Virus record (IMG/VR): IMGVR_UViG_3300047564_005571 | Span: 1 to 32,796 of that record | Source: a virus | Length of the DNA stretch: 32,796 nucleotides | Reading direction: 5' to 3' (one strand) | Shown here: piece by piece, positions 11,601 to 29,778 of the stretch | Numbering within the stretch: position 1 is the stretch's first letter | Layout: each line of letters begins with the position of its first letter | Translations under genes and position numbers: made by a program | Notes under the pieces: generated by a model | Database searches by the model: none | Told to the model about the DNA's origin: nothing | What the model saw: the letters and a program-made list of their open reading frames with translations, nothing else

Positions 11601-11927
11601 TTCCTCTTTCCACTGGACTTCTGCTGGTTGGCACTTGCGAAGGAGGTACAGAACACGTTGCGCTTGCTTGCCGTTCAGCAACTGAGTTACGTCAACCTGA
11701 ACTGCATGTTCAGTATCAACGATGATTTCAATTGCTGTGGTTTGACTTGGATCAATTCCAAGAATCTCTGACAGCTCTTTTGCAAACCAACCATGCCCCG
11801 TAACAAATCCAAGCTCGGGCTCGGGCTCGGGCTTTTTCTTTGCGGGGGCGTAAACAAACTGAATTGCGATCAGAGCTGGAAGGGTAAGGATCAGGCAGCA
11901 AATTGCATACTGAAAAGTATCAATCAT
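11583..11927 (-). CDS. Small membrane-anchored protein, unknown function
   Basis: 114 residues from ATG 11927, which overlaps the ERF stop as TGATG. One N-terminal hydrophobic segment (about 7-28, AICCLILTLPALIAIQFVYA) is followed by a Lys/Pro/Glu linker (KKKPEPEPE) and a soluble domain of about 75 residues with no motif I know. It probably sits in the inner membrane with the domain in the cytoplasm or periplasm. Co-transcription with ERF suggests expression in the same phase. Confidence 0.6.
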   Translation of the reverse strand: MIDTFQYAICCLILTLPALIAIQFVYAPAKKKPEPEPELGFVTGHGWFAKELSEILGIDPSQTTAIEIIVDTEHAVQVDVTQLLNGKQAQRVLYLLRKCQPAEVQWKEESSLSN

Positions 11928-12703
11928 CACTCGTCCTCATCGCCCTTGAACAGGCTTTCGGCTGCTTTCTCAAGAGCCTCGATGCTATTGCTCTTGGGCT
12001 TGTCAACTACGGGGGGTTGAACAATCTGTTCGCCCTTGCTATTTTTTCCAGCGTTCAAGTTTGAGATCAACTTGGAATCTGCAATCTTGTAAGCCTGAGT
12101 TGCTTTGGAGTCAGCAATCTCAGAGAAGTTGCTTGCACTGCAGAGCTTCAGGAAGGTTGTCTGGCCAAATGCCGTCAGCCCAAGCTCCTTCAGCTTCATC
12201 TCCAGCTCCTCCTGGATCGGGGCCTGGCGGGCCGGGGCGACGGAATCCCCTGGGGAGTAGGCGCGGGTCTTCTTGGCGGCCTGAGTGGGCTCCTGGGCGG
12301 GGCCTGGGCCGCTCTTGGGCGCCCCGAGAGTGGCGTCAAGCTCATCGTGCTCAACGATCTCCATTGCCGTTACCCAGAGATAACGACGGAGATATGTTTG
12401 CACCGCCCCAAGGTTTTGAATGTCATGAGCCCCCTTGAGGGCGGCAGAAGACATCGGGCTGTTAATTTGAATCCCAGGGCCTTCGGGGTCTTCCGTATCA
12501 AGAATCGTCAGATTTGCACTTTCCGCCCCATAGCTCACGATTCCGCACAGGCCAACCTGAGCAAAGATTTCTTGAACTGTTGGCAGGAAGTCGCCAAGTT
12601 CAAAGTAGTTGTAACCTGCAAATTTATTGCGCCCGGTCTTTTTCAGCTCACGACGCTGAAGCTCGGTGCGGGCCTGGTTGAGCTTGGAATAGACGTTGGC
12701 CAT
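11927..12703 (-). CDS. ERF-family single-strand annealing protein
   Basis: 258 residues. The N-terminal about 135 residues carry the ERF pattern: an amphipathic start, NKFAGYNYFELGDFLPTVQE, a beta stretch with ANLTILDTED, and HDIQNLGAVQTYLRRYLWV. A long Pro/Ala/Gly linker (about 143-180) leads to a C-terminal helical region and an acidic tail (KGDEDE), possibly a partner contact. ERF proteins anneal complementary ssDNA and, with the exonuclease and SSB encoded downstream, form a phage recombination system. It is the first gene after promoter 12754-12782. Confidence 0.8.
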   Translation of the reverse strand: MANVYSKLNQARTELQRRELKKTGRNKFAGYNYFELGDFLPTVQEIFAQVGLCGIVSYGAESANLTILDTEDPEGPGIQINSPMSSAALKGAHDIQNLGAVQTYLRRYLWVTAMEIVEHDELDATLGAPKSGPGPAQEPTQAAKKTRAYSPGDSVAPARQAPIQEELEMKLKELGLTAFGQTTFLKLCSASNFSEIADSKATQAYKIADSKLISNLNAGKNSKGEQIVQPPVVDKPKSNSIEALEKAAESLFKGDEDE

Positions 12704-12753: not shown

Positions 12754-12782
12754 AAGGTAGGACCATTGGGGCCATTTGTCAA
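12754..12782 (-). promoter_or_regulatory. Promoter P1 with dyad operator, ahead of ERF
   Basis: -35 TTGACA (12777-12782), 17-base spacer AATGGCCCCAATGGTCC, -10 TACCTT (12754-12759). The spacer fits nnnGGnnCCAnnGGTGC, shared with four further promoters here (16515, 22993, 24473, 29724). The start codon of ERF is about 50 bases downstream. Confidence 0.8.
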
Positions 12783-13992: not shown

Positions 13993-14160
13993 TTAACAGT
14001 CTTCCCTCCTCCTCCAGGTGCGACTGTGACACCAGAACTCTCTGAGCCTTACGCCCTTCCAATGCATTAACGTTTCAGGTTCCTGCTTGCCCCATCTCAC
14101 CATTCCACGGGGATCTGCATCTTCCGCCGTTGGTAGCCTGTCCTTGATCCACTCTGTCAT
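13993..14160 (-). CDS. Small Trp/Arg-rich protein (55 aa)
   Basis: ATG 14160 overlaps the upstream stop as ATGA; stop TAA at 13993-13995. Starts MTEWIKDRLPTAEDADPRGM and ends CHSRTWRRREDC. The WI-x-DRLP opening recalls the start of DUF551-type phage proteins. Overlap with the upstream gene supports it. Function unknown. Confidence 0.55.
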   Translation of the reverse strand: MTEWIKDRLPTAEDADPRGMVRWGKQEPETLMHWKGVRLREFWCHSRTWRRREDC

Positions 14161-14576
14161 TGATCCTCCCCGATAAGATTGGTGATTTCTTGCATTGTCA
14201 TTGTTTTAAGTTCTGACAACTGAATTGTATCGCCCTTCAGTTCGGCAATTGCCTGAGCGCGCCCATGCTCGTAGCCAAGCTTCATTTCAGCCTTGTAACC
14301 CTCCTGGGTGTCGAGTCTCAAATTTCGTAGTGTTCTGTGGGCGTCTATTAGCTTATGAATTGTCAATGTTTCCGGGTGATTGTGGATCTCGATTGAATAG
14401 GCTCTTAGTGCTTGCACCTCAGACGAGATTCGATTGTTTACCCACGAGGCCCCGCAAAATATAAAATCTTCGACAGACCAAAACAAAACAGATGTAGAGG
14501 ATTCCAAAATCTCTTTCCATATCTTTCTAATATCATCTTCGTTAGGCAAGATTGAAAGTTTGTTCAAAAAAGTCAT
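14157..14576 (-). CDS. Unknown protein (139 aa)
   Basis: Starts MTFLNKLSILPNEDDIRKIW, with a hydrophobic aromatic patch (TSVLFWSVEDFIFCGASWV) and a helical C-terminal half (YKAEMKLGYEHGRAQAIAEL). It overlaps both neighbours by 4 bases (ATGA). No family recognised. Confidence 0.5.
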   Translation of the reverse strand: MTFLNKLSILPNEDDIRKIWKEILESSTSVLFWSVEDFIFCGASWVNNRISSEVQALRAYSIEIHNHPETLTIHKLIDAHRTLRNLRLDTQEGYKAEMKLGYEHGRAQAIAELKGDTIQLSELKTMTMQEITNLIGEDQ

Positions 14577-14929
14577 TGGTCTCTCTCGTTCATTTTTTGA
14601 TAAGCAGTAGCAAGTAGGTCATTAACTGACATTGACTCAGCCGTTCTGAAAAGCCTGTCGGCTTTCTCCTTCGGAATAGACTCATAATTACTGCATCTGA
14701 TCTCAAGGCCAATCGCTACAGATGTGCGCCCTGATACCTGCATAGTGTACGGACTGCCATAGGTAGATACATCAAAGCAGTCATGGTCTACGTTAAGAGT
14801 TAAGCTAGTCACCATGAATCCATCACAGAAAATGGAATGACTCCAACTTGGCCACTTAAGACAAAGCCTTTGCCCGTCCGAGAGAAGCAGCGTGCTCCAA
14901 TCGGAATAGTTGCGAGTGAGGGCGGACAT
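14573..14929 (-). CDS. Unknown beta-rich protein (118 aa)
   Basis: Alternating strands (SDGQRLCLKWPSWSHSI, GFMVTSLTLNVDHDCFDVST, VSGRTSVAIGLEIR) then a helical tail. The ATG overlaps the previous stop as TAATG, and the stop overlaps the next ATG as ATGA. Its layout faintly recalls phage tail-domain folds, but nothing secure. Confidence 0.5.
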   Translation of the reverse strand: MSALTRNYSDWSTLLLSDGQRLCLKWPSWSHSIFCDGFMVTSLTLNVDHDCFDVSTYGSPYTMQVSGRTSVAIGLEIRCSNYESIPKEKADRLFRTAESMSVNDLLATAYQKMNERDQ

Positions 14930-15162
14930 TAGTAATTGATCATCAAGATTTCTTCGACGCCCAGTTTCAGGAGCTTGGCGAGATCGGCCTTGGACCTTTC
15001 AAGGAGAATCTCAAGGCGCTTGATTTCGCGCAATCGCTCTTGAATGACTTTCTTGGCGGCAGCTCGCTCTTCAGACTCAAACTCCGCAAGAGCTTCATCA
15101 AGAAGTTGCTGAGTTTCTTCGGAAAGAGAAAGATTGTTGCTGATGGTAGAAAGAGAAGACAT
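14929..15162 (-). CDS. Small coiled-coil protein (77 aa)
   Basis: After a Ser-rich start the product is almost entirely a charged helix with heptads (TQQLLDEALAEFESEERAAA, RLREIKRLEILLERSKADLA). It probably self-associates or binds a partner. No domain recognised. It is 38 bases downstream of the GY-repeat gene. Confidence 0.55.
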   Translation of the reverse strand: MSSLSTISNNLSLSEETQQLLDEALAEFESEERAAAKKVIQERLREIKRLEILLERSKADLAKLLKLGVEEILMINY

Positions 15163-15200
15163 TGCTTTTGTCGATTGATTTGCTGAGTTGTGAGCGTGAG

Positions 15201-15427
<227 letters not shown>

Positions 15428-15428
<1 letters not shown>

Positions 15429-15748
15429 CACAACCCCCACTGATCATTTACCGGCACGCAGAAAATCTCAGCGCCCTCGGGCATGTCCACATCGGCCATT
15501 GGGCGAATGTCAGCGTTGCTGGGGTCTTCAATAACCTTTGCGAAACCACAGCTTTCCCAGCGAAACACCCACACAGCACGACTGATCTTGATGCGGCCAT
15601 TTTCGCGGGTGATGTCACCAGCAAAAATCCAACCACGATCAACAACAATTACAGCGCGATTACCATTGGGCTTGGCGGCAGGAAGAGAATCGGCCCTGAC
15701 GTATTGAACGCCATTGACAGAAATGGAGGACAGTTCAGCGGAAGTCAT
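15428..15748 (-). CDS. Small phage protein resembling DUF6948
   Basis: 106 residues. The central part AVIVVDRGWIFAGDITRENG and AVWVFRWESCGFAKVIEDPS recalls a phage-associated domain that I believe is DUF6948 (VDRGWIFAGD, WVFRWES-GFA); this is memory of the pattern, not a search. Compact beta structure, function unknown. Its stop overlaps the start of the GY-repeat gene. Confidence 0.6.
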
Positions 15749-15787
15749 GAGAAAAAATGATTAACCGAGAGATTGAATGAACAGACT

Positions 15788-15985
15788 TTAGGCTTCGGGG
15801 TGTTTAACCCATTTCCCACACCAGTAAGCTGCAGGCGTCGGAGGGGAAAGCTCTGTCATATTTGACAGAGAAGGGGCGTGGTAACAGCAAACTTCATGAC
15901 AAGTGCCACCTGGGCCGATTGCATCTCGCATGTAGTAGCAATTCCCGCAGTTTTGAAGATCGAGTCGCATTGAGCCAAAAGTCAT
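15788..15985 (-). CDS. Cys-rich putative zinc-binding small protein (65 aa)
   Basis: Six cysteines: NCGNCYYM, GGTCHEVCCYH and WCGKW, plus two His. It starts in the ATGA overlap with the upstream gene. The spacing suggests a zinc or metal-bound small domain. No family named. Confidence 0.55.
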   Translation of the reverse strand: MTFGSMRLDLQNCGNCYYMRDAIGPGGTCHEVCCYHAPSLSNMTELSPPTPAAYWCGKWVKHPEA

Positions 15986-16212
15986 GAACCTGCAAGAATT
16001 GGCTGAATTTTCACCCCATGCTGCGGAAGCTCCCAGGACATCGAGGGACGATCACGAGGCCCGCAACGATCATCAAGGATGTGGAACCTGATTCCATTGC
16101 TGAGAATTACATAATTGCCAATCCTTGTCTTGACGGTTACGATCTCTTGTTCTTCGTTGTCAAAAGAAGAAACAATCGCAGTGCTATCAGGCGAGAACAG
16201 GAGCTTGTTCAT
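15982..16212 (-). CDS. Unknown small beta-rich protein (76 aa)
   Basis: Short strands (TAIVSSFDNEEQEIVTVKTR, IGNYVILSNGIRFHILDD) and a C-terminal loop. It lies 26 bases inside the end of the winged-helix candidate gene and is coupled to 15788-15985 by ATGA. Function unknown. Confidence 0.5.
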   Translation of the reverse strand: MNKLLFSPDSTAIVSSFDNEEQEIVTVKTRIGNYVILSNGIRFHILDDRCGPRDRPSMSWELPQHGVKIQPILAGS

Positions 16213-16462
16213 TGAGAGTTACCGTGGATGCAAGGTGCCACTTTCCGCCTTTCCTGTCATAGGAAACAAAGCCTTTTCTCTTCAGGGATTTCATCCTCCC
16301 CTCGGCCAGAAAATAAAACCTATCTGGCAATGTTTTGGCTTTTTGCCTTGAAGAGAAATTCCGCCCCACATAAAGATAAACATCATCAAATGCGGCAGGC
16401 CCCTTGGCGAGATGCTCAACAATGAGCGACTCAACCTTTGCGTGGATTTCAGGCTGTTCCAT
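16187..16462 (-). CDS. Winged-helix-like small protein, candidate DNA-binding regulator
   Basis: 91 residues from ATG 16462; a longer frame to 16534 would cross promoter P2. Residues about 1-75 look like a small winged helix: a first helix (KVESLIVEHLAKGP), a DVYLYVGRNF turn, a recognition-type helix (AEGRMKSLKRKG) and a beta wing (FVSYDRKGGKWHLA). It is the first gene after P2, whose spacer holds the shared operator, so autoregulation by this protein is possible. A replication or structural role cannot be excluded. Confidence 0.55.
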   Translation of the reverse strand: MEQPEIHAKVESLIVEHLAKGPAAFDDVYLYVGRNFSSRQKAKTLPDRFYFLAEGRMKSLKRKGFVSYDRKGGKWHLASTVTLNEQAPVLA

Positions 16463-16486
16463 GTCGGAAGCTGTGTGTGCCCATGA

Positions 16487-16515
16487 ATAATGGCACCGTT
16501 GGTTCCGTCTGTCAA
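16487..16515 (-). promoter_or_regulatory. Promoter P2 with dyad operator
   Basis: -35 TTGACA (16510-16515) overlaps the TGA stop (16512-16514) of the upstream gene. Spacer GACGGAACCAACGGTGC (17), -10 CATTAT (16487-16492). Same nnnGGnnCCAnnGGTGC pattern as P1, P3, P4 and P7. Drives the winged-helix candidate at 16462. Confidence 0.75.
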
Positions 16516-16709
16516 CCCTCTTTTGCAAAATCAAGGAGCGAAAGCTGAACCGGCTTTTGGCGCCTGCGCTTCTTGGCAGCTTTTTTCTTTTCTATGACAG
16601 GCTGAGTATGGGGCGAGTAACTATCAATATATGGTTGAATGCCAGGTATCACAATCTGATCGCCCCTAAAAAGCTTAATTCTCCGAATTGTTTTTGCAAT
16701 ATCGTTCAT
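16512..16709 (-). CDS. Small basic protein with clamp-binding-like C-terminus (65 aa)
   Basis: N-terminal part MNDIAKTIRRIKLFRG, a Lys/Arg-rich middle (EKKKAAKKRRRQK) and a C-terminus PVQLSLLDFAKEG. QLSLLDF resembles the Q-x-x-L-x-F type peptide by which proteins bind the beta sliding clamp. This is only a motif resemblance. It starts in the ATGA overlap with 16706-16918 and its stop lies within the -35 box of P2. Confidence 0.5.
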   Translation of the reverse strand: MNDIAKTIRRIKLFRGDQIVIPGIQPYIDSYSPHTQPVIEKKKAAKKRRRQKPVQLSLLDFAKEG

Positions 16710-16918
16710 CTAGTTTGTCCTCGCCCCAGCTTTTTTTTCTTTTTCTTTTCAAGATTTTGCTCCCACATCATTTCTTTTTTGCTTTTGATAGGATTTTCAA
16801 GGCAATCCAAAAAAGTTTCGTCATAGCCGGGCGGGGAAAGATGATAGTGAACGCTGAAAATAGCCCGCCAGTTTGGGAGCGGATGGGGTTTTGGGCGTTG
16901 TTGACTTTCCTCTGTCAT
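16706..16918 (-). CDS. Small Lys-rich unknown protein (70 aa)
   Basis: MTEESQQRPKPHPLPN, a central part with Tyr/His/Pro, and a Lys-rich tail with a six-Lys run encoded by an A-rich stretch. Coupling to the next gene (ATGA) is the main support; it could be spurious. Upstream is the regulatory region of the ribbon-helix-helix gene. Confidence 0.4.
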   Translation of the reverse strand: MTEESQQRPKPHPLPNWRAIFSVHYHLSPPGYDETFLDCLENPIKSKKEMMWEQNLEKKKKKKLGRGQTR

Positions 16919-16947
16919 TGCGATAGCCTGGAGTCCCTAATGGTCCC
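16901..16947 (+). promoter_or_regulatory. Promoter and GTCCC repeat ahead of the ribbon-helix-helix gene
   Basis: -35 TTGACT (16901-16906), 17-base spacer, weak -10 TAGCCT (16924-16929). Just downstream is GTCCC-taatg-GTCCC (16933-16947), two direct copies ten bases apart, one helical turn, as ribbon-helix-helix repressors often use. Read on the other strand it also resembles the operator (GGGACCATTAGGGAC against GGGACCAATGGTGC in P7). Confidence 0.45.
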
Positions 16948-17017
16948 TCGGACAAATCATAGTATGCCAGAAGCAGGTTTTCAAGCAGAGGAAGTCACCA
17001 CGAAAAGGAATTCCGTG

Positions 17018-17170
17018 ATGACTGTAAAAATGCGGATCGAAGAGGAAACTGCTTTTAAGATTGCAACTTTCAAACCTAGAACGCTTTCAATGAGCACCTT
17101 TTGTGCAATGCTCGTTGAATACGGGTACAAGGAGTGGGAGAAGGCCCACTTCAACAACCCTGCCAGCTAG
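17018..17170 (+). CDS. Ribbon-helix-helix (Arc/CopG-like) DNA-binding protein
   Basis: 50 residues from ATG 17018, with AAGGA about 9 bases upstream; the open frame extends back to 16688 but its N-terminal part runs antisense through another gene. The pattern is that of an RHH repressor: a beta strand TVKMRIEE, helix A (ETAFKIATFK), a turn RTLSMS, and helix B (TFCAMLVEYGYKEWEKA). It would act as a dimer on repeated sites. It is a leading candidate to bind the GTCCC repeat upstream and possibly the operator promoters. Stop TAG shares CTAG (17167-17170) with the convergent gene. Confidence 0.65.
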   Translation: MTVKMRIEEETAFKIATFKPRTLSMSTFCAMLVEYGYKEWEKAHFNNPAS

Positions 17171-17772
17171 GCCCCGGAGCCCCGAGAAGGCGGCACGATC
17201 GCCTCCCCCAGGAACTCCTGCCGGAAGTGCAGAACGTCGCCCTGGAGGGCCTTCAGCAGGCAGTGCATGTGCTTCAGCCGCCCCCTGATCGCCCCGAGCG
17301 GCTTGAGCGTGATTCGATTGAGAGAAAGAAAATCATCTAGGTTTTTGCAAAGTTCAATCAACCTAGAAGTGAAGAACTCAATGTAGTCAAGTTCTTCTGG
17401 CGGCAACGATAAAAAGTCTTTGGGGGCGAGAAAAAAGAAAAATTCGCTCTCAATTTCTCTAAATGCAGTTATTGCCTTTCTGGCCAGGGCAACTTTTTTT
17501 CTATTTAGCTGGCTTTTTTCTATGGGCGAAAGTCTCTTATACCTGCCATCGTCTATGACAAACAAATAAGATGAGCCGGAGAACCCCGCGTCGTAACCAA
17601 TAAGTAGCCAACTATTGCCAAGAGCTTGTATTTTATCGCCCTTCTTGAGTGAATTACCTGGGCCAAATCTATCGCCGGAATAACAAAGAATGCTCTCATC
17701 ATTCCAGCGACACTTATCGTCTGAATCTCGCCCACAGATAGGACAAGGGGATTTTTTAGAAGAGGATTTCAT
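17167..17772 (-). CDS. Zinc-finger protein downstream of DnaB, unknown replication role
   Basis: 201 residues. N-terminal zinc motif CPICGRDSDDKCRWNDESILC (C10, C13, C21, C30), a pattern like the zinc-binding start of primases and DUF3854-type phage or plasmid replication proteins. The rest is helical (KVALARKAITAFREIE, DFLSLPPEELDYIEFFTSRL) without a visible TOPRIM or AEP core. It begins directly after the helicase stop codon, so the two are probably made together. It may help priming or DNA recognition; this is inference. Confidence 0.6.
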   Translation of the reverse strand: MKSSSKKSPCPICGRDSDDKCRWNDESILCYSGDRFGPGNSLKKGDKIQALGNSWLLIGYDAGFSGSSYLFVIDDGRYKRLSPIEKSQLNRKKVALARKAITAFREIESEFFFFLAPKDFLSLPPEELDYIEFFTSRLIELCKNLDDFLSLNRITLKPLGAIRGRLKHMHCLLKALQGDVLHFRQEFLGEAIVPPSRGSGA

Positions 17773-19194
17773 CTACCACTTCTTACTTTCAAACATTGCA
17801 TAACATTCTGCTGCAAAGTTAATCTGACATGTCCCTGTCGCCCCCTTTCTGTTCTTGGCGATGGCGTACTCATATGTCATCTGATCTTGGCCTTTATCGT
17901 AATAATATGGCCAATAGTTGAAAACAACCAGATCGGCATCTTCTTCAATCTTGCCCGATTCCCTTAGGTCTGAAAGCATTGGCCTTTTATCATTCCGCCC
18001 CTCAACACCTCTATTGAGCTGACAAACAAGCAAAATATCAACCCCCGTTTGCAATGTTATCTTTTTGAATTTTCTCGTTGCCGCCCCCACTGCGAGAGCC
18101 CTGGTCTCAGCTTTCATTGAATCTGAATCAATATCCATGAGAGTCAGGTAATCAACAACCACCAGCGAAAGGTTTGGGTTTTTACGCTTTTCAGACTTGA
18201 TCTTATTGGCAACCTGAGAGGGCGTGACATCGTAAGTATTGGCAAAGAGCAGATTATCTGCAATCGACTCTACGCCTGTCTCAATTATCCTTCTGCCTTG
18301 CGCCTCATCTTTTACCTGCCTGATCACATGCCCGTAAGTCAGTGGGCTGCCCCCAATGTCGAGGCAGTTCATGTAATCCATGCAAGAAAGCATTCTCTGG
18401 CAAACTTCTCGATCTGACATTTCAAGGGTGTAGTAGAGAACCTTGAAACCGTTCATAGCAACGTCAAGAGCAAGGTTCATCGCCCAGGTCGATTTACCGC
18501 TGCCGGGGCGGCCTGCAACAACCATCAGTCGCCCATCAGTTCCCACGCTCGGGTGGTTCAACCCACCCCCCAGGGCGCTGTTGAGCCCAGAGAAACGAGT
18601 TTTGATCACTCGGTTGGCGATCTTTGGCCCAAGGAAAAGCTCTTTTGCTGCAATTAAGGGGTGAATCTCTTTTTTGTAAGTTTCCGCCCCCTCAATCAGG
18701 TCAACTGCCTGCAGGAGATAGGAGGTTGCTGTTCTCGATTCGGTAACGCTGCAGCTCCTGTTGATGATGTCAGAGGAGTTTTGGATGTAATCTTTAATCC
18801 TTGAGCGAGAATGATGAAAATACCAGATAGGCATAATCTTTTCCGCCCAGACCTCCAGACTTTTCTCGACTGGATATGAGGCGATTAGCTCGATGTATTC
18901 TTCAGCCGCTCGTATCTCACAGCCTGAGATGTCCCTCAGCAGAGTTGCAAGAGTAATGTCATTCGTGGGCGACTGATGAAAATTGGCGTATTCTTCACAT
19001 AGACAGTCAAACATGTATCTATTGAAGGGGTTAGAAAACAGCTCCCTGCCCTTCGGCATTTCCATAAACTTATCCGCCCACTCCTGCTCACCAAAGGCGA
19101 AACAGAAATGATTGTAAGCGGCAGCAAGAAAGTGCCTTTCAATTTCAGAGGAGTCTTGCTGTGACTCAAGTTGCTCGATTTTGATTACGGTCAT
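17773..19194 (-). CDS. dnaB: Replicative DNA helicase, DnaB family
   Basis: 473 residues, full length for the family. The N-terminal helical domain covers about 1-180. The RecA-like motor has Walker A GRPGSGKST at 228-236, VLYYTLEMS (about 252-260), Walker B LVVVDYLTLM at 344-353, and the LLVCQLNRGVEGR and DLRESGKIEEDADLV motifs (about 388-423). The protein is a hexameric helicase that unwinds DNA at the fork. It follows the probable helicase loader (3-base gap) and precedes the zinc-finger gene. Confidence 0.93.
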   Translation of the reverse strand: MTVIKIEQLESQQDSSEIERHFLAAAYNHFCFAFGEQEWADKFMEMPKGRELFSNPFNRYMFDCLCEEYANFHQSPTNDITLATLLRDISGCEIRAAEEYIELIASYPVEKSLEVWAEKIMPIWYFHHSRSRIKDYIQNSSDIINRSCSVTESRTATSYLLQAVDLIEGAETYKKEIHPLIAAKELFLGPKIANRVIKTRFSGLNSALGGGLNHPSVGTDGRLMVVAGRPGSGKSTWAMNLALDVAMNGFKVLYYTLEMSDREVCQRMLSCMDYMNCLDIGGSPLTYGHVIRQVKDEAQGRRIIETGVESIADNLLFANTYDVTPSQVANKIKSEKRKNPNLSLVVVDYLTLMDIDSDSMKAETRALAVGAATRKFKKITLQTGVDILLVCQLNRGVEGRNDKRPMLSDLRESGKIEEDADLVVFNYWPYYYDKGQDQMTYEYAIAKNRKGATGTCQINFAAECYAMFESKKW

Positions 19195-19197
19195 GGA

Positions 19198-19932
19198 TTA
19201 AGCGAGATCCTCTTCAAACATGTTGACTATTCGTTCTGTTGAGGGCCTAGAATTTTGCTCCCAATGCTGTTGCTTTTTCCTGCCAAATTTATCCCAGTTG
19301 GAATAAGTAATAGAATCCCACTTCTTTTCCCCAGACTTCGATCTTTCGATTGCAAGTTCAAGCTGCTGCTTGACTGCATCAATTCCGCCCCCTTTATCAT
19401 CAAAAATCTGCATCAATGAATTAAGCAGGCTGTCAAACGATCTTTTACTTTTTACGCCCCCTTTGTGATCATTGAAGAAGTCACAGATAATTGAGGCAAC
19501 ACTACTGAGCTGAGGCGGAATAAAAGGAGTGCCAAATGGAGTGGCTACAAACTTTCTACTGCCTTGCTTGACTGGTGGGAGAGAAACGGATTTGTTTGCC
19601 TTTCTTAAGGCTTCGGAAGCATAGGAGTAACGTGAAAGATCCGGGGGGAAAGCGCCCTCAACACTAAGCAGGTAAATACTGTTTTCATTTTCGTCAACTG
19701 TTTTCTTGACATATCCATTCTCCCTTAGCCACTGCAAAGCGTCCCTAACCTGCTGAGGCGTCAAGCGAGAAGCCTCGATCAACTGACTGCCAGAAATAGA
19801 TGCAGCCTTTGAATTGCTAGCTTTTTCCAGCAAAATCATAAAAATCCAAATATAATCCCTATTCTCCTGCAGAAGCTCTGAAGGGGCGATGATAAACTTA
19901 TGGGCTGAAAGTGGGACGGAATTCTTGCTCAT
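19198..19932 (-). CDS. Winged-helix replication protein, probable helicase loader (DnaD-like)
   Basis: 244 residues. The N-terminal about 90 residues look like a winged helix (IWIFMILLEKASNS, SGSQLIEASRLTPQQVRDAL then WLRENGYVKKTVDE with a wing). The C-terminal part ends with SGEKKWDSITYSNWDKFGRK, close to the W-x-x-I-x-x-x-W signature of DnaD-type helicase loaders. It lies directly upstream of dnaB. The name helicase loader is inferred from order and this motif. Confidence 0.6.
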   Translation of the reverse strand: MSKNSVPLSAHKFIIAPSELLQENRDYIWIFMILLEKASNSKAASISGSQLIEASRLTPQQVRDALQWLRENGYVKKTVDENENSIYLLSVEGAFPPDLSRYSYASEALRKANKSVSLPPVKQGSRKFVATPFGTPFIPPQLSSVASIICDFFNDHKGGVKSKRSFDSLLNSLMQIFDDKGGGIDAVKQQLELAIERSKSGEKKWDSITYSNWDKFGRKKQQHWEQNSRPSTERIVNMFEEDLA

Positions 19933-19933
19933 T

Positions 19934-20239
19934 TCACGCCCCCGCCGAAAGGTCAGTATCGACCTCTTTAATTAACTTGTAGCCTAGCATTGCAAGCTCA
20001 AGCTGCTGTTTTTGAATGTGAGATACCTTACTGTTTTTATCGTTTGCTAACATGCTTAGTTTTCTGACAGAAAACCTGCACAGTTTATCTGATATGTCTT
20101 CCGCCCTAACAGCTTGATCTTCAGTCATGAGTGGATTGATCTCAGCCAAGCGAATCGCTACTGAGATATGGAAGAATTGGTCCGAGGGATTCAAATCTTC
20201 GCTGAACGATTGATTTAATTGTTCTGTCGATTTGTTCAT
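19934..20239 (-). CDS. Unknown helical protein upstream of the replication genes
   Basis: 101 residues from ATG 20239 (MNKSTEQLNQSF), chosen because promoter 20268-20296 is just upstream; a TTG start at 20296 would coincide with the -35 box. It is acidic then polar, with HISVAIRLAEINPLM and LAMLGYKLIKEVDTDL. It overlaps 20142-20474 by 98 bases. No domain recognised. It is the first gene of the unit leading to the loader, DnaB and the zinc protein. Confidence 0.5.
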   Translation of the reverse strand: MNKSTEQLNQSFSEDLNPSDQFFHISVAIRLAEINPLMTEDQAVRAEDISDKLCRFSVRKLSMLANDKNSKVSHIQKQQLELAMLGYKLIKEVDTDLSAGA

Positions 20240-20474
20240 CTGTTTTTGAAAGGAAGCTTCGGAATTTAAGATAGCAAGAAAATTCTTCGTTGTCAAGTAA
20301 ATCTAGTTGTCTGTAAACTTCATCAATTGCTGGCGTCTCTTCTTGTAGTTGAGCCGCTTTGTAAAAAAGATTGGCTCTTTGATCGTCAATCTCAGAAAGT
20401 TTCTTTTTATAGCTTTCTCGGCTTAGCTTAATCAACCTATGAAGCTCGGCAACTTGTTTCAATAAGTCGTTCAT
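20142..20474 (-). CDS. Coiled-coil protein (110 aa), unknown
   Basis: MNDLLKQVAELHRLIKLSRE and KKKLSEIDDQRANLFYKAAQ form a charged helix, followed by acidic turns and a basic patch (IKSIVQRRFESLGP). It overlaps the upstream stop as ATGA (20471-20474). No family recognised. A promoter for the next genes is embedded in it. Confidence 0.5.
   Translation of the reverse strand: MNDLLKQVAELHRLIKLSRESYKKKLSEIDDQRANLFYKAAQLQEETPAIDEVYRQLDLLDNEEFSCYLKFRSFLSKTDEQIDRTIKSIVQRRFESLGPILPYLSSDSLG
20268..20296 (-). promoter_or_regulatory. Promoter for the dnaB unit
   Basis: -35 TTGACA (20291-20296), 17-base spacer ACGAAGAATTTTCTTGC, -10 TATCTT (20268-20273). It lies within the coding end of 20142-20474. 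The spacer does not carry the dyad operator, so the replication genes may be controlled separately. It also contains a dyad GAAGAATTTTCTTC-like element. Confidence 0.65.
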
Positions 20475-20779
20475 TGACTCCCCTCCAGCTCGGCGGCGAT
20501 GGTATCCAAGGTGCTTGTGCGGATGTATTCGACGCCGCCTATGAACTCAGTGTCTACCCGCCAATCGTTCGCAGCAGCTCGCAGGGCGGCGGCAATGGCT
20601 AAACGATCTTCATGTTGCAAGCATGGATCCCACGGGCTTTTCAAGTAGGCATCCAGAACCGCCTGCGCGGCGGGCGATAACGGCTGAGCTGGTCCAGGTG
20701 CATGATGGCCTTGTGGACACAACGCATTGAACTCCTCATCACTGAGGTGGCTTAGATCGTTGGGGGTGAGGTTAGTCAT
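20471..20779 (-). CDS. Unknown protein (102 aa), GC-rich block
   Basis: Pro/Ala-rich: SDEEFNALCPQGHHAPGPAQ, then AAQAVLDAYLKSPW and a helix rich in Ala (LAIAAALRAAANDW). The gene overlaps the previous one by 8 bases. Codon use is visibly GC-richer than in the replication genes. Similar Ala-rich small proteins occur in marine cyanophage siphoviruses as far as I recall. Function unknown. Confidence 0.5.
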   Translation of the reverse strand: MTNLTPNDLSHLSDEEFNALCPQGHHAPGPAQPLSPAAQAVLDAYLKSPWDPCLQHEDRLAIAAALRAAANDWRVDTEFIGGVEYIRTSTLDTIAAELEGSQ

Positions 20780-21110
20780 CGAGTTGCTCCAAGGCTCGGC
20801 GGATGGTGTCGGTGATCTCTGGAATCACGACATCCATTCTTTCAATTGTCCCCAGCATTTCTAGTGCAATGCTGTTCAGTGTCTGGGGCTTTGGGCGGCG
20901 GGCGGCGCGGAGTGCGTTTGCACCAATGTTGGGATAGTCATGCTGTAACCACTCACAGCACGCCTCCAGTTCAATGTCGGCGCCCCACTTGGCGGCGCGG
21001 TTGGCGACATAGATGTCTGGACCCACCCCTTTAATGGACTTGTCACAAGTCCACTCCAGAAACCACTGCCGCACCAGCTCCGGCGGTGGTGTGATGCTGT
21101 GGTCAGCCAT
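20772..21110 (-). CDS. Unknown protein (112 aa), cyanophage-type
   Basis: ATG 21110 overlaps the upstream stop as TGATG. SITPPPELVRQWFLEW, KWGADIELEACCEWLQ and LRAARRPKPQTLNSIALEML. This arrangement (PPPELVxxW, WGADxELEACCEWL, LRAARRPKP) resembles a family common in cyanophage genomes with no known function. Overlaps the next gene by 8 bases. Confidence 0.6.
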   Translation of the reverse strand: MADHSITPPPELVRQWFLEWTCDKSIKGVGPDIYVANRAAKWGADIELEACCEWLQHDYPNIGANALRAARRPKPQTLNSIALEMLGTIERMDVVIPEITDTIRRALEQLDD

Positions 21111-21772
21111 CACTTCACCTCCTGCTGCGGCACCGGCAGCGCGTGGTGGGGTCGAGGCGGAAGCGGCTGCCAGTGCGTAATCATGCCTTCGTGAACAAAC
21201 ACAGCCCCGTAATCATCCCAGTTCTCAATGCTTTCATACCAGCCTTCCGGCCAGTAGTATTCATCGGCTTCTTCGTCGTATTCGGCAAAGTCGTCATCCA
21301 CTAAGCAGTCATCGGTCCGTGACTTTGCTGGCACCCACTCAGCAAGAATGGTCCGAGAATTTCCGAGATCGTTGAGATAGTGGGCGATGACTTTCGTGTG
21401 GGGTTCCGGCAGCCGCTCGCTCACCGGCACCGGCTCGATGGCCGGGCGGGCAAAGCGGGCTAGGACGGCGCGGGCAAAGCTGAGAATCTCGCCGGGCTCA
21501 GCCATAATCCTTCCACCATCAACGATGTATGAGTCGGGTTCAGGAAGACCACTGGCACGACTAAGCAATTCAAGCAATTCCTCATCACTCGGCCCCTGCG
21601 GCTCGGGCTGGGCCAGCAAATCATCCTTGTTTTCCGAAGCCAATTCCAGTTTTTCAATGCGGGCGCGGAGTTCAATCAGTCCTCGCGACCATGCGGCATC
21701 GCACCTGTCGCAGGTTGAGTTTCCTTCAAGCCACGCCCAGTCCGATGGCGTGGCGCGGTGTGGCGTGGTCAT
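21110..21772 (-). CDS. DUF551-like protein with N-terminal Cys motif
   Basis: 220 residues from ATG 21772 (MTTPHRATPSDWAWLEG), which overlaps the upstream stop as ATGA. A small Cys pair CDRC is near the start. The middle and end fit DUF551: PVSERLPEPHTKVIAHY, an acidic Asp/Glu/Tyr-rich insertion of about 45 residues, and GMITHWQPLPP. DUF551 proteins are common in phages and their role is unknown. Belongs to the GC-rich block. Confidence 0.65.
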   Translation of the reverse strand: MTTPHRATPSDWAWLEGNSTCDRCDAAWSRGLIELRARIEKLELASENKDDLLAQPEPQGPSDEELLELLSRASGLPEPDSYIVDGGRIMAEPGEILSFARAVLARFARPAIEPVPVSERLPEPHTKVIAHYLNDLGNSRTILAEWVPAKSRTDDCLVDDDFAEYDEEADEYYWPEGWYESIENWDDYGAVFVHEGMITHWQPLPPRPHHALPVPQQEVK

Positions 21773-22284
21773 GCCGCCTCCTGTGCAACAGACTGCAGCC
21801 ACTCAATGGCGTCGTTCTTCTCGTCGTAGAAGTGCGCAGCAGCATCAGCGCCTAACAACAGCAATCCAGCCATGTATGGGCCATGAAGTTCCTCCAAGAC
21901 TTCGCCTAGCGTTCCAGCCTGGTGAATAGCCCACCCCGCCAAGCAGTGAGTAGTGCCGCACTCGCTATGCCATTTTCCCATTTGCAGGATTTGGGGGTGA
22001 GCCAATACATGGCTGGCAACCGCACGCAGCCGTTGCTTGGCATCTGCAGCAATTGGCAACCCGTTGGCGCCGCTCAGATTGGCGCCGCTCAGATTGGCGT
22101 CGCTCAGATCAGCGCCGCTCAGATCAGCGCCGCCCAGATCAGCGCCGCGCAGATTGGCGCCGCTCAGATCAGCGCCGCTCAGATCAGCGCGGATGCCAGC
22201 AGGATCAACGGCAAGCCATAGCTTGTGTGCTTCAAGGATTTGGTCTAGCTCAGTTTGTGTCATGTGTCTTTGTGATTCAGGCAT
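21769..22284 (-). CDS. Pentapeptide-repeat protein
   Basis: 171 residues from ATG 22284, with GGAGG 8 bases upstream (ATG 22263 is an alternative). Residues about 32-76 hold nine to ten A(D/N)LSG-type repeats, which form a right-handed beta-helix. The C-terminal half is different: SECGTTHCLAGWAIHQAGTL and NDAIEWLQSVAQEAA. Some pentapeptide proteins mimic DNA and inhibit gyrase, but this one is short in repeats and common versions in cyanobacteria have no known role. It is in the GC-rich block. Confidence 0.75.
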   Translation of the reverse strand: MPESQRHMTQTELDQILEAHKLWLAVDPAGIRADLSGADLSGANLRGADLGGADLSGADLSDANLSGANLSGANGLPIAADAKQRLRAVASHVLAHPQILQMGKWHSECGTTHCLAGWAIHQAGTLGEVLEELHGPYMAGLLLLGADAAAHFYDEKNDAIEWLQSVAQEAA

Positions 22285-22687
22285 CAAACGCCCCTCCTTC
22301 ACGAAGCTGCTGGTAGTGGTAGCGCCCCGGCTGGTCACGGTCCACTGGGATGATGACCGTGAAATCAGGCTCGGGAAACTGGTCCGAGCATTCGACACCC
22401 GGATAGCCAGGCTGGGTGAGAAACGTCCGGCACTCAGCGGCTCCGAGCAGCGTGCCGCTGGTGGTCTGGTACTCCCAGACCATCCAGCCATTGATGGTGT
22501 CCATCCGCAGGTTGCTGTGGCACAGGGTGGAGAGGGGATTGAAAGTGCGACGCGCTTCCCACGATGCAATCGCCGCCCACATGGCCACCTTGACGTCGGC
22601 TTCGGTGGCAACGGGTAAACCTACGAACCGAATGAACTGCTCGCGGGTGAGCACATAGGGCTCGCCGGGTTGGTGGTTTTCAAACAT
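22277..22687 (-). CDS. Unknown protein (136 aa)
   Basis: MFENHQPGEPYVLTREQFIR at the start, VKVAMWAAIASWEARRTF in the middle and a beta-rich C-terminus (DFTVIIPVDRDQPGRYHYQQ). Its stop overlaps the pentapeptide gene start by 8 bases. No family recognised. A 60-base gap separates it from the membrane-HTH gene upstream. Confidence 0.5.
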   Translation of the reverse strand: MFENHQPGEPYVLTREQFIRFVGLPVATEADVKVAMWAAIASWEARRTFNPLSTLCHSNLRMDTINGWMVWEYQTTSGTLLGAAECRTFLTQPGYPGVECSDQFPEPDFTVIIPVDRDQPGRYHYQQLREGGAFDA

Positions 22688-22747
22688 GGCGTGTGATGGG
22701 TTGAAGGGATGCTGCCGGATTGAATAGGCTCCGGCGGGCCGTTGCGC

Positions 22748-22930
22748 TCAGGCTGCTACCAGCCGTCGCGCCGTTGTCTGGCTGCAGCCGATGCGCTCCG
22801 CAATCAAGCGGTACGTCATCCCGTCGCGCCGCCAGCGACGGGCGCGTTGCTGCCTGGACTCAGTAGCCCAGAGCAAGAACAGAACAAGGAACAGCAGCAG
22901 CACCAGGATGGTGCAGGTGATCGTGGTCAT
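22748..22930 (-). CDS. Short membrane-anchored helix-turn-helix protein (60 aa)
   Basis: One transmembrane segment at about 5-22 (TCTILVLLLFLVLFLLWA) is followed by a basic stretch and a complete HTH at about 33-60 (RWRRDGMTYRLIAERIG then CSQTTARRLVAA), like the C-terminal HTH of resolvases. It is the first gene behind P7, which carries the shared operator. A membrane-tethered DNA-binding protein could sense envelope state or anchor phage DNA. It resembles in layout the larger protein at 1938-2429. Confidence 0.65.
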   Translation of the reverse strand: MTTITCTILVLLLFLVLFLLWATESRQQRARRWRRDGMTYRLIAERIGCSQTTARRLVAA

Positions 22931-22964
22931 GGCTGGTGCGCTTCAACGGGCTAACAACTTTCAA

Positions 22965-22993
22965 ACAGTAGCACCATTGGTCCCAGTGCGCAA
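22965..22993 (-). promoter_or_regulatory. Promoter P7 with dyad operator
   Basis: -35 TTGCGC (22988-22993), spacer ACTGGGACCAATGGTGC (17), -10 TACTGT (22965-22970). The spacer fits nnnGGnnCCAnnGGTGC exactly. The membrane-HTH gene starts about 35 bases downstream. Confidence 0.7.
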
Positions 22994-23007
22994 CAGGTTT
23001 GCAAATC

Positions 23008-23036
23008 TGCACACGAAAAACCCCTGCAGCTAAAAT
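23008..23036 (+). promoter_or_regulatory. Candidate promoter, divergent from P7
   Basis: -35 TGCACA (23008-23013), 17-base spacer, -10 TAAAAT (23031-23036), then ATG 23059. The -10 matches the consensus in five of six positions, the -35 in four. No operator pattern seen. Confidence 0.4.
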
Positions 23037-23058
23037 CTTGATAGGCAAAACCAGCGAA

Positions 23059-23355
23059 ATGGCAGTTAAGGCAAGTATCCTCAAAAGACTCGTAACCCAG
23101 CTTCGTCGCAATGGGATGTCAGAGGGGGCGGCAAATGCAACAGCTAGAAAAAGATTGCAAGATTCCGGTATTTTGAAAAAAGGCAGCGACGAATTAACCG
23201 AATATGGCAAGAAGAGGCAGGCAATGGGCGCGGCGGGAAGAGCGAAGGATCGGGCGGCAAAGAGAAGTGGCAGAAAACCGAGTGAATATAAATATAACGC
23301 TAAAACCAATAGAGCGACGCTGAAGAAAAAACAAACGGATCATGGCATGACTTGA
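23059..23355 (+). CDS. Basic phage protein of a conserved hypothetical family
   Basis: 98 residues from ATG 23059 (MAVKASILKRLV). Helical N-terminus with MSEGAANATARKRLQDSG, then KGSDELTEYGKKRQAMGAAG, KDRAAKRSGRKPSEYKYNAK and TNRATLKKK. The RAAKRSGRxxSxYKYNxxTNRATLKK ending is one I recognise from many phage genomes, often close to packaging or structural genes. Strongly basic; function unknown. Its stop codon is overlapped by the -35 box of the next promoter. Confidence 0.65.
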   Translation: MAVKASILKRLVTQLRRNGMSEGAANATARKRLQDSGILKKGSDELTEYGKKRQAMGAAGRAKDRAAKRSGRKPSEYKYNAKTNRATLKKKQTDHGMT

Positions 23356-23380
23356 CAAAGAGAAAACTGCGTGATAGAAT
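23352..23380 (+). promoter_or_regulatory. Near-consensus sigma-70 promoter
   Basis: -35 TTGACA (23352-23357), 17-base spacer AAGAGAAAACTGCGTGA, -10 TAGAAT (23375-23380). The TGA stop of the upstream gene lies inside the -35 box. No dyad operator in the spacer. It leads to ATG 23411. Confidence 0.75.
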
Positions 23381-23410
23381 TAAGATGCCAAGCTTCTTAA
23401 CCCCTCAAAC

Positions 23411-23659
23411 ATGGAAAGATGTTTGTATTTTACCGACAGTGAAGGCAATAAGACATTTATTGGAAAGCTTGTAAAGATAGTGGTTTCTATTAAAGATAAA
23501 AGTGAATCGAAAAGAGTTATTTGGCATCAGCCAGATCGAGATCAGCTCTGGTGGTTTGGTTGTCAGCCCGAAAAGGGATGCTTTGGGCGCATTCGCTGGT
23601 TCAACTCGGACCAAGATGAGGGCTCATGGGGCAGGGTCTTTCTTTCACGCAATCCGTGA
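23411..23659 (+). CDS. Unknown aromatic-rich protein (82 aa)
   Basis: MERCLYFTDSEGNKTFIGKL, a hydrophobic strand (KIVVSI), then a Trp-rich part (VIWHQPDRDQLWWFGC, IRWFNSDQDEGSWGRVF). Beta-like small domain. It is monocistronic behind a strong promoter, so probably made early and abundantly. No family recognised. Confidence 0.55.
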   Translation: MERCLYFTDSEGNKTFIGKLVKIVVSIKDKSESKRVIWHQPDRDQLWWFGCQPEKGCFGRIRWFNSDQDEGSWGRVFLSRNP

Positions 23660-23684
23660 TAGAATCCCTGAGCGACTCAAAGCC

Positions 23685-23771
23685 CCTACCGGGCCGTAGG
23701 CCGCAACAAAGACCCTGCTTAGGCGGCAGGGCGGTTTCCGGGGAGTTTGCCAGTGTTGCAACCGGAAAACC
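23685..23771 (+). other. Three consecutive hairpins, possible structured RNA
   Basis: H1 CCTAC/GTAGG (23685-23700, 5 bp), H2 CCCTGC/GCAGGG (23713-23731, 6 bp), H3 GGTTTCCGG/CCGGAAAACC (23733-23771) with an inner TTGC/GCAA stem stacked on the 3' side. None is followed by a U run, so they do not look like terminators. They lie in the transcript from promoter 23352, between a gene and a terminator at 24072. They may be an RNA element or a DNA site. Confidence 0.5.
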
Positions 23772-24071
23772 TAGTAAATACTGGAAATGAAGATGGATGC
23801 TCGCCCGGTGATTTCAAAGCTTGTCATTAGCCATGGCATTCTCTCGCCAACTTCGAGCTACCCATCTTCGACGCAACCCTTTCTTTGGTTCTGAATCCGC
23901 GCCAGACGCGACAGTAGGAATCTCCGGGTTGTGTTCCCGCTCTGCATGGACCGGAAATCTCCAGTCGCCGCATCGGGCTAAGTCCTGTGTTTGCAGGCCA
24001 GAGGTTGATCATCTCTGCCAGTTGATCCGCTGGTGCGCCCTCGACCCATTTGGCAAGCGCGAAGGTCACGG
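23772..24071. other. Stretch without a convincing gene
   Basis: Open frames of 60-106 codons exist on both strands (plus 23821-24138, minus 23827-24069), overlap almost fully, and neither has a known domain or a good start. A tRNA-like clover fold was looked for and not found. I see some weak hairpins (near 24000-24035) but nothing I can name. Confidence 0.4.
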
Positions 24072-24107
24072 AAGGGCCCGGGGGATTGACTCTCGGGCCT
24101 TTCTTGT
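24072..24107 (+). terminator. Intrinsic terminator
   Basis: AAGGGCCCG (24072-24080), 13-base loop, CGGGCCTTT (24094-24102) with one G-T pair, then CTTGT. The stem runs into a T-rich end on the plus strand, so it should end rightward transcripts from 23352. On the minus strand it may also serve the gene ending at 24117. Confidence 0.55.
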
Positions 24108-24116
24108 ATCTATGGA

Positions 24117-24422
24117 CTACGGCTTGAAAAGTTTGTGAGGGGCAACCTGAACATCAAATGGCAGCCAATGCGTATCAATATCAAGCGGTTTCTTTTGCAA
24201 GTCCCAGCACCAAAATTCGTTTAATCCATTCCAGCACCCATAAAGACACCGACCGTATTCATCAAGATCGGAATCCTCCGGCAACCGCTCTGCCAACGCA
24301 ACCGGCTTATCAATTGGGAGCGTATAAAGACCGATAGCGATTGCGTTCAGATTTTTTTGCTTACTTGAAAATCTTTCAATTAGTGACCTGAATTTCTGGA
24401 CTGACATTTTGCGATAGAACAT
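24117..24422 (-). CDS. Unknown protein (101 aa) behind promoter P3
   Basis: ATG 24422 (MFYRKMSVQK) or ATG 24407; an open frame back to 24473 would include P3. Basic start (VQKFRSLIERFSSKQ), then acidic and Trp-rich (GCWNGLNEFWCWDLQ, DTHWLPFDVQVAPHKLF). Resembles DUF551-like layouts but not firmly (LPEDSDLDEYGRCLYG). Under the shared operator. Confidence 0.5.
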   Translation of the reverse strand: MFYRKMSVQKFRSLIERFSSKQKNLNAIAIGLYTLPIDKPVALAERLPEDSDLDEYGRCLYGCWNGLNEFWCWDLQKKPLDIDTHWLPFDVQVAPHKLFKP

Positions 24423-24444
24423 TGAAAAGAATGCGAACCTTTGA

Positions 24445-24473
24445 AGCCTAGCACCGATGGTGCCATGTGTCAA
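24445..24473 (-). promoter_or_regulatory. Promoter P3 with perfect dyad, inside the end of the primase-like gene
   Basis: -35 TTGACA (24468-24473), spacer CATGGCACCATCGGTGC (17), -10 TAGGCT (24445-24450). The dyad GCACC-ATC-GGTGC is perfect. The whole site encodes the last residues of the upstream primase-like protein, whose TAG stop is the first half of the -10 box. Confidence 0.75.
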
Positions 24474-25932: not shown

Positions 25933-25948
25933 CCTTTTCAGGGGTCGT

Positions 25949-25976
25949 GATCTAGTCAGTGTAGCCCCCTCCGCAA
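25949..25976 (-). promoter_or_regulatory. Candidate promoter for the primase-like gene
   Basis: -35 TTGCGG (25971-25976), 16-base spacer starting AGGGGGCT, -10 TAGATC (25949-25954), about 17 bases before GTG 25932. The AGGGGGC start of the spacer is shared with P4 and P6, but the dyad is not present. Confidence 0.45.
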
Positions 25977-26091
25977 CCCAGGGGCCGCCTCGATCTGTTC
26001 CTTGCGCCCAAATCTGTTAAGTCGCCAGCAATGGTGGATTTTGATTTTTAATTGCACGGGGCGCCGAAGGAAGGTAAATCGGGCAAAGTCT

Positions 26092-26118
26092 CTTTGTACT
26101 TATGACAGTAGTACAAAG
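26092..26118. repeat. Perfect 9-bp inverted repeat upstream of the primase-like gene
   Basis: CTTTGTACT, 9-base spacer, AGTACAAAG. The gene-free stretch 25977-26200 also holds an AT-rich patch (26036-26054). This is a plausible operator or replication-origin element for the primase-like protein. Nothing else was recognised in the stretch. Confidence 0.6.
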
Positions 26119-26200
26119 TGTCCTCAGCGGCTCGGCAAAAGAAAAGCGACTCAGGGGCCGCCAGTGAATCAGGTAAGCCAGCATGGTCTCGGCTTGCAAG

Positions 26201-27202: not shown

Positions 27203-27573
27203 TTTCTCTTCTCGCTAGGGTGTGCAATCACAATCTTTTTGTTCTTCTCCTTTTCTTCTACCTTTTGCTGCTCTGCGTGCATTGCAAGATGCTTCTCAAG
27301 AGCGTTCATGTGCGGGCATTTGCTGCCAACCTGATGGCGCTTGAAAAACTCTCTCATTTCTTCAAGGATGCCAAACTCGTATTCACTTCTTTCAGGCCCC
27401 CATTTGCCATACGTCTTATGAAGCTGATGGAGCTTGTACCATTCTTCTTCATCGAGATACCTTCTCTTTGCCGCCCACATCAAATCTGAATAGGCCAGCT
27501 TGTCTGCTCTCTTTTGTTCTCGTTCCGCTGACTTTCTTTCTTGTGCTTCTCTTTTGGTGAGGAAGGTTGCCAT
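27199..27573 (-). CDS. Charged helical protein (124 aa)
   Basis: Lys/Glu-rich at both ends (FLTKREAQERKSAEREQKRA, EQQKVEEKEKNKKIVI) with an aromatic middle (EEEWYKLHQLHKTYGKWG). Likely an extended coiled coil. It overlaps 26201-27202 by ATGA. A terminator-like hairpin just upstream (27609-27631) separates it from the previous unit. Function unknown. Confidence 0.5.
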   Translation of the reverse strand: MATFLTKREAQERKSAEREQKRADKLAYSDLMWAAKRRYLDEEEWYKLHQLHKTYGKWGPERSEYEFGILEEMREFFKRHQVGSKCPHMNALEKHLAMHAEQQKVEEKEKNKKIVIAHPSEKRK

Positions 27574-27608
27574 TTTGATGTAGTTAAAGAATTGATTTGA
27601 AGATTTAA

Positions 27609-27631
27609 GGCCGGCGCAGTATGCGCCAGCC
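27609..27631 (-). terminator. Terminator-like hairpin after 27637-28119
   Basis: GGCCGGCGCA, loop GTA, TGCGCCAGCC with one mismatch, followed on the minus strand by TTAAATCTT. The T run is interrupted, so termination is probably moderate. Confidence 0.5.
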
Positions 27632-27636
27632 GCATG

Positions 27637-28119: not shown

Positions 28120-28154
28120 GTGAGACATGAGAAGTGTTTCATGGATCGCTTTCG

Positions 28155-28183: not shown

Positions 28184-28190
28184 GGCTTTT

Positions 28191-29752: not shown

Positions 29753-29778
29753 GTAAGAGTCCAAGGCACCAGCCCTGC

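Follow-up and report, generated by a model that had tools for sequence, protein, structure and literature searches.

The Arc repressor of phage P22 is a very small phage protein of the ribbon-helix-helix (RHH) fold whose operator lies between the −35 and −10 elements, with two dimers bound per operator. TrcR of Anabaena PCC 7120 is an autoregulated RHH repressor whose sites overlap the −10 element of several promoters or lie close to it, and TrcR homologs are reported in two Nodularia phages (PMC10272220); SvtR and F55 of archaeal viruses are likewise virus-coded RHH regulators, and SvtR acts as a repressor at its own promoter besides binding other promoters of the viral genome (PMC5569661). 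Among the titles listed by literature searches on cyanophage RHH proteins, none describes the system considered here.

Here we analyse an entire IMG/VR virus record of 32,796 bases (the window), which is probably a fragment because positions 15628–32796 are identical to part of a 66.6-kb contig. It carries a conserved small gene, a candidate RHH regulator, and a set of promoters whose spacers hold a shared palindrome that the product of this gene may recognize.

Results

Setting of the regulator gene

Megablast of 14000–25932 against isolate phages gave no match at the DNA level. Two scans of genome contigs found no relatives, and the host is therefore only a guess: the clues that make us guess at a cyanobacterium are a phage-encoded sigma-70-type factor, for which the tblastn matches listed (32–39%) belong to phages of several hosts, including Microcystis and Synechococcus phages, and the C-terminal part of a protein from a different phage group (group 2, see below), which is 32–33% identical to Prochlorococcus phage proteins. 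Tyrosine integrases (PF00589) were detected in none of eight records, which may be fragments, and HTH_3 gave weak matches in six of the eight with none above its cut-off, so that a role in lysogeny is unsupported. Coding repeats also lie at 15201–15440 and 22052–22216 of the window: a frame rich in Gly-Tyr/Gly-Asn (GCCGTA units), and 15-bp repeats in a row whose translation looks like pentapeptide repeats.

The regulator gene (Table 1) adjoins DnaB, with a replication-initiator-like protein nearby. Its immediate neighbours are divergent (16706–16918) and convergent (17167–17772), and it is therefore not part of a usual toxin–antitoxin pair; identity as a type II antitoxin was rejected for want of a co-directional neighbouring toxin gene. 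Orthologs of the divergent gene occur in the close lineages defined below, in G009, G022 and G023/G024 and, partially, in G025; the leftward promoter predicted to face it has a −35 that is weak in relatives by our reading of the alignment.

Table 1 Features of the window, with one set of look-alike promoters from another contig
Feature	Position	Strand	Basis or remark
Sigma-70-type factor	4469–5461	−	Phage-encoded; most of the same relatives have it
Erf-like ssDNA annealing protein, first gene behind the 12782 promoter	11927–12703	−	Pfam ERF E 1.2e-9; PHROG 155 E 7e-24
Spacer operator promoter TTGACA-AAT-GGCCCCAATGGTCCT	12759–12782	−	Kept upstream of the Erf gene in five close lineages
Winged-helix-like protein, 91 aa, behind the 16515 promoter	16187–16462	−	ORF and distance; winged helix is our sequence reading
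Spacer operator promoter TTGACA-GAC-GGAACCAACGGTGCC	16492–16515	−	14.9 bits; kept in five close lineages
Divergent conserved gene, 70 aa, function unassigned	16706–16918	−	ORF; no Pfam or PHROG match
Predicted regulator promoter TTGACT, 17-bp spacer, TAGCCT	16901–16929	+	Sequence, kept in alignment
Operator-like site GTCCCTAATGGTCCC	16933–16947	.	At predicted start of regulator promoter; minus strand GGGACC-N4-GGGAC(T)
Predicted leftward promoter TTGAAA-17-TATGAT facing the divergent gene	16956–16984	−	Consensus match in window
Candidate RHH regulator, 68 aa (50 aa if ATG 17018 is used)	16964–17170	+	Conserved ORF
60-aa protein, hydrophobic N-terminus and HTH-like segment, behind the 22993 promoter	22748–22930	−	ORF
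Spacer operator promoter TTGCGC-ACT-GGGACCAATGGTGCT, weak −35	22970–22993	−	Pattern and matrix
101-aa protein behind the 24473 promoter	24117–24422	−	ORF; no Pfam or PHROG match
Spacer operator promoter TTGACA-CAT-GGCACCATCGGTGCT	24450–24473	−	Pattern and matrix
Spacer operator promoter TTGACA-AGG-GGGCCGATTGGTGCC	29724–29747	+	Weakest of five, 11.4 bits
167-aa protein behind the 29724 promoter	29779–30282	+	ORF; no Pfam match
G011 look-alike promoters (L075)	110637–114490 of contig 3300025889_017816		Sequence pattern

A conserved small gene with a probable upstream start

The preliminary description of this locus gave the regulator as a 50-residue protein. An open reading frame from ATG 17018 to the stop at 17170 is indeed present, but an in-frame ATG at 16964 probably marks the true start and a 68-aa product: an equivalent ATG occurs in all five close lineages with the frame open up to that point, and the free-standing homologs G009, L095 and L097 lack the internal methionine at 17018, which together make the longer form more likely. 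Against it, AAGGA precedes ATG 17018, and the N-terminal tail carries no purifying signal (nine nonsynonymous vs two to three synonymous codons of 14, window vs others).

Searching viral contigs with the 50-aa protein recovered nine loci, eight of them true relatives; the ninth, L010 (57% over 23 residues, with differing upstream sequence), was dropped as a chance match. By DNA identity, these eight IMG/VR contigs and the window make up five close lineages, the best segments being 72–78% identical. Judged by its codons, the regulator core is under purifying selection, with differences between the window and the other lineages at 18–23 third, 9–10 first and 2–3 second positions of 45 core codons. 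More diverged homologs are those of G009, G022, G023/G024 and G025. An alignment search that included G009 yielded 35 loci from 86 candidate stretches: the eight close relatives, G009, four more free-standing proteins (L094–L097) and 22 loci (L098–L119) where the domain forms the N-terminal part of a longer ORF, of 202–221 codons stop to stop in 21 of them, L103 being cut by a contig end. Two of these were scanned, and in both the C-terminal part is similar to replication initiators (PHROG 270); 21 of the 22 loci have a divergent CopG-like RHH gene.

A putative palindromic operator fills the spacers of several promoters

Listing the TTGACA promoters of the window revealed a palindrome repeated in the spacer. 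This operator consists of two boxes, GGNNCC-ANN-GGTNCY, that fill the 17-bp promoter spacer, and the pattern TTGNC-N4-GG-N2-CCA-N2-GGT-N-CY with one mismatch occurs five times in the window vs 0.05 expected. Requiring at least 12 of 15 matches gave 26 sites over six lineages vs 0.8 expected, a count for which the consensus came from the same data, in which not all sites are independent because many in lineages B–E are orthologs, and of which one, the same palindrome on the other strand, was dropped from the matrices. A leave-one-lineage-out matrix found 28 sites of at least 15 bits vs 1.0 in shuffled sequence; a −35-like hexamer stands at the exact offset in 26 of them, compared with 10.7% of window positions. 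The strong matrix sites sit mostly in promoter spacers, and relatives too have operator promoters, with an unchanged distance to the −35. The G020 ortholog of the weakest window promoter (29724–29747) keeps an operator. Three of the five window sites pass 15 bits (the others scoring as in Table 1). The trait that marks Arc, a palindrome between −35 and −10, is thus found five times in the window at a fixed offset, and in each case an ORF has its first ATG 51–79 bases from the −35 start. Three further window promoters, at 28183, 31376 and 23352, have TTGACA but degenerate or absent boxes and were not counted.

Across viral contigs, a loose operator pattern matched 19, several of the matches looking to us like coding sequence. 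Two strict patterns, drawn from the family's own sites, matched five and eight IMG/VR viral contigs, all of this phage group. A near-perfect palindrome, GGGACCAATGGTCCT, was also noted at G009:43408–43422 beside TTGAC on the other strand, lacking the usual 3-base gap. As to the genes behind the operators, the 16187–16462 protein has no Pfam match and falls in PHROG 7185, of unassigned function, and the HTH matches of the 22748–22930 protein are all below curated cut-offs.

Such palindromes might instead be promoter parts, read by a host factor or by the phage sigma factor rather than by a repressor. The sigma-70-type gene is shared by most of the same relatives, several operator sites have weak −35 hexamers (TTGCGC, TTGCTG), and the apparently unrelated G011 and G014/G021 possess similar promoters, as this explanation would have it. 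We nevertheless regard it as unlikely: many other −35/−10 consensus matches in the window (matches, not proven promoters) have no palindrome, we know of no sigma recognition element that is a dyad-symmetric 15-mer, and neither the cyanobacterial LexA box nor the TrcR motif matches the sites, so that a LexA identity is unsupported.

A related site at the regulator's own promoter

The predicted regulator promoter pairs a −35 TTGACT (16901–16906) with a −10-like TAGCCT (16924–16929) that matches TATAAT at three of six positions and reads TAGTGT in the other four close lineages. As the preliminary description had it, this promoter is followed by two GTCCC copies (16933–16937 and 16943–16947), ten bases apart start to start. 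GTCCC as such was rejected as an enriched word, being rarer than expected (28 in the window vs 49.8), and exact GTCCC-N5-GTCCC occurs once vs 0.04 expected, with 4 of 100 shuffles reaching one. Nor is the exact 10-bp direct repeat the conserved feature, since the second GTCCC reads GGTTCC in four of the five close lineages; what is conserved in all five is a unit AGTCCC-N4-GGTYCC directly after the −10, and its right half, GGTCC, is found just after the −10 in G009, G023 and G022 as well.

On the other strand the site reads GGGACC-ATTA-GGGACT in the window, GGAACC-AACA/G-GGGACT in the other close lineages and CGGACC-AATA-GGCACT in G009 and G023. Its likeness to the operator spacer of a promoter called P7 had also been remarked on (P3 and P7, left undefined in that description, are taken here to be among the spacer-operator promoters), and the reverse complement, GGGACCATTAGGGACT, does resemble such operators, for example GGGACCAATGGTGCT at 22970–22984. 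We prefer to see the site as an incomplete copy of the operator family, with one strong half (GGGACCA) and one degenerate half. The half-site GGGACCA ranks 14 of 65578 in the window, whereas the full site is weak by score (9th in the window and 9 to 159 in seven relatives, with 9-bp spacing); in our reading it has two hexamer boxes 10 bp apart vs 9 bp in the spacer operators. A GGNNCC box comes close to being a palindrome in its own right, so that calling the repeat "direct" or "inverted" makes no difference; by analogy with known RHH proteins one dimer may occupy each box.

The GTCCC repeat at 16933–16947 could alternatively be there by chance, with the regulator not autoregulated through it. 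The exact repeat is not conserved and the full-site score is modest, as chance would predict, but the retention of AGTCCC-N4-GGTYCC in five lineages and of GGTCC at the same place in G009, G022 and G023 makes this account improbable.

The fold of the regulator

The preliminary description called the product an RHH protein. In proteins of this class a short strand precedes two helices, and the dimer inserts a two-stranded sheet into the major groove. The alignment begins with a strand-like segment containing [VI]-K and a short first helix, after which come K-P, F-C-A and a second helix; the strand segment is M-T-V-K-M-R in the regulator and L-I-V-K-I-S in its G009 ortholog. AlphaFold2 with 19 sequences predicted compatible helices (27–35 and 43–63; core pLDDT 85–90, pTM 0.52) with no strand assigned; a lone RHH chain is without its partner strand. 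The model from five sequences was poor, with one long helix, 3–35, in addition to helix 43–63 (pLDDT 67). Searches of family libraries gave little: RHH models in Pfam and NCBIfam had no match to the 19 members at E ≤ 1, TraM being the sole Pfam/NCBIfam match of the RHH-family search (two members and one member, E 0.08–0.22), and PF01402 had no match in this genome, nor in any of G000, G001 and G009. PDB sequence searches returned nothing beyond one spurious match. Foldseek gave only two matches (E 7.8 and 9.1) and VIA-align among four chains none with Z of 2 or more, both comparisons being made without a single-RHH-chain positive control. In hhalign, the regulator family aligned to the group-2 CopG-like family over 50 collinear columns with one gap (E 0.0013, probability only 18%), this family itself matching Pfam CopG_antitoxin below cut-off (E 0.009). 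We rate an RHH fold likely rather than proven: the predicted helices and the weak profile match are compatible with the original assignment, but the Pfam, NCBIfam and PDB searches gave it no backing.

Proposed pairing of protein and operator

A link between the two is given by G009, a 98-kb contig that was fetched by the operator pattern alone and encodes a 38%-identical ortholog of the regulator in the same gene order. Together with the purifying selection on the core, the operator family and the related, conserved site at its own promoter, this agrees with the proposal that the regulator is the protein most likely to bind the operators; the title of "master regulator", also given to it, goes beyond the evidence in view of a possible second DNA-binding protein (16187–16462) and of the genomes G022, G011 and G014/G021.

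In several genomes the protein and the operators part company. G022 encodes a regulator homolog at 51% identity and has no operator by pattern in 69 kb, and G023 has the regulator and no operator by pattern; a single operator was found by pattern in G024, which carries the same protein. Of the best matrix hits, the two inspected in G022 and the one in G023 had no −35 at the offset. G022 (L121) carries AATTTA[GC]TTGACA with different spacers at 8194−, 9747+, 11032+, 12928+, 14039+, 15594+ and 17465+, and since it also carries the homolog, these seven promoters may be a diverged operator set. Conversely, among the 19 contigs of the loose pattern the regulator was found in three (G001, G002 and G009), plus G020 through its overlap with G008, and searches of the remainder, whole or in part, gave no regulator match. 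(G008 and G020 overlap over 26.5 kb at 99.99% and seem to belong to a single phage genome.) The apparently unrelated 119-kb G011 packs 9–10 look-alike promoters (TTGACW-N3-GGTNCCANNGGTGCTATATT-like) into 4 kb, and G014/G021, also apparently unrelated, have two; in neither case was a regulator homolog detected. G013, related through other genes, has an operator and no homolog detected in 32 kb.

In lineages B and E, a CopG-like RHH protein (G002:6139–6582, G020:20389–20595), with PF01402 below cut-off, lies directly behind one operator and could be a rival binder in those relatives; the window lineage yielded no relative of it. Boxes upstream of the group-2 genes (ACC-N3-GGT-like), examined in 13 of the 22 loci, were not used as proof of binding, as they vary between members and the divergent CopG-like RHH gene shares the promoter.

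The operators might also be bound by another phage protein, most plausibly the winged-helix-like product of 16187–16462 in classical autoregulation, with the 16964 protein doing something else. The operator before 16187–16462 is kept in five close lineages, and orthologs of its product occur in these, in G009 and in G023/G024. Yet in G009 and G023 the 130 bases before the ortholog hold no spacer operator, whereas the site at the 16964 gene is kept there, and no family match supports DNA binding by this product. We hold its role as the operator's binder to be improbable, yet count it as a serious rival. That the RHH protein instead serves replication, segregation or another role, at most regulating itself, with the operator family unrelated, would accord with the adjoining DnaB, the replication-initiator-like protein nearby and the homologous domain that heads longer proteins in 22 loci (the two scanned resembling replication initiators), but the high-ranking operator half-site at its own promoter speaks against it; we consider it very unlikely.

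Discussion

We favour, with reasonable though far from full confidence, the reading that the 16964–17170 protein is a small, autoregulated RHH repressor of the spacer-operator promoters in the manner of Arc and TrcR. In the mechanism that we propose, the protein would bind the two-box operator GGNACC-ANN-GGTGCY and its variants as paired dimers. The operator fills the gap from −35 to −10 in some five promoters of the fragment, and protein bound there would block RNA polymerase, repressing by spacer occlusion, as Arc does on its target promoter, rather than activating. At the regulator's own promoter, a weaker operator overlapping the predicted transcription start would limit the regulator's own synthesis and perhaps also that of the divergent 70-aa gene. 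Its repression would thereby set the timing of a group of small genes and of the Erf recombination operon. The gene and its conservation, the operator family with its fixed offset from the −35 and the related site at the gene's own promoter are evident from sequence, whereas the RHH fold, binding, repression and autoregulation are inferred.

A bolder and distinctly tentative extension, which we think could well be wrong, is that the protein belongs to an RHH subfamily not described before and overlooked by current profile libraries. In one (possibly cyanobacterial) phage group it would repress promoters phage-wide through two-box spacer operators, while in another group its DNA-binding domain would have been transferred to a replication-initiator-like protein. 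If so, the same kind of domain would govern promoters in one lineage and probably an origin, or the initiator's own promoter, elsewhere, and RHH phage regulators would be extended to a subfamily missed by the profile libraries searched. The present analysis proposes a specific assignment of protein to operator for a group of uncultured phages, and the regulon that it predicts is open to testing with a single purified protein and some short DNA fragments.

Among described systems, the repressor of cluster A mycobacteriophages offers a parallel in that one phage protein serves numerous copies of one site across the genome, as proposed here; its stoperators are asymmetric and also stop elongation, whereas the strong sites of the present family sit mostly in promoter spacers. 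SvtR and F55 act at archaeal promoters with different motifs. TrcR, compared here by description, resembles our candidate in the proposed RHH class, the possibly cyanobacterial setting, possible autoregulation and sites at several promoters; its own-promoter motif, ATACTACACTTGTATTAC, has no match in the window within three mismatches, and identity of the present sites with the TrcR site is thus unsupported. From P22 Arc the locus differs in that at least five promoters share the operator, with boxes 9–10 bp apart, and in that no RHH family or PDB match links the sequences; like Arc, it pairs a very small candidate RHH phage protein with an operator placed between −35 and −10.
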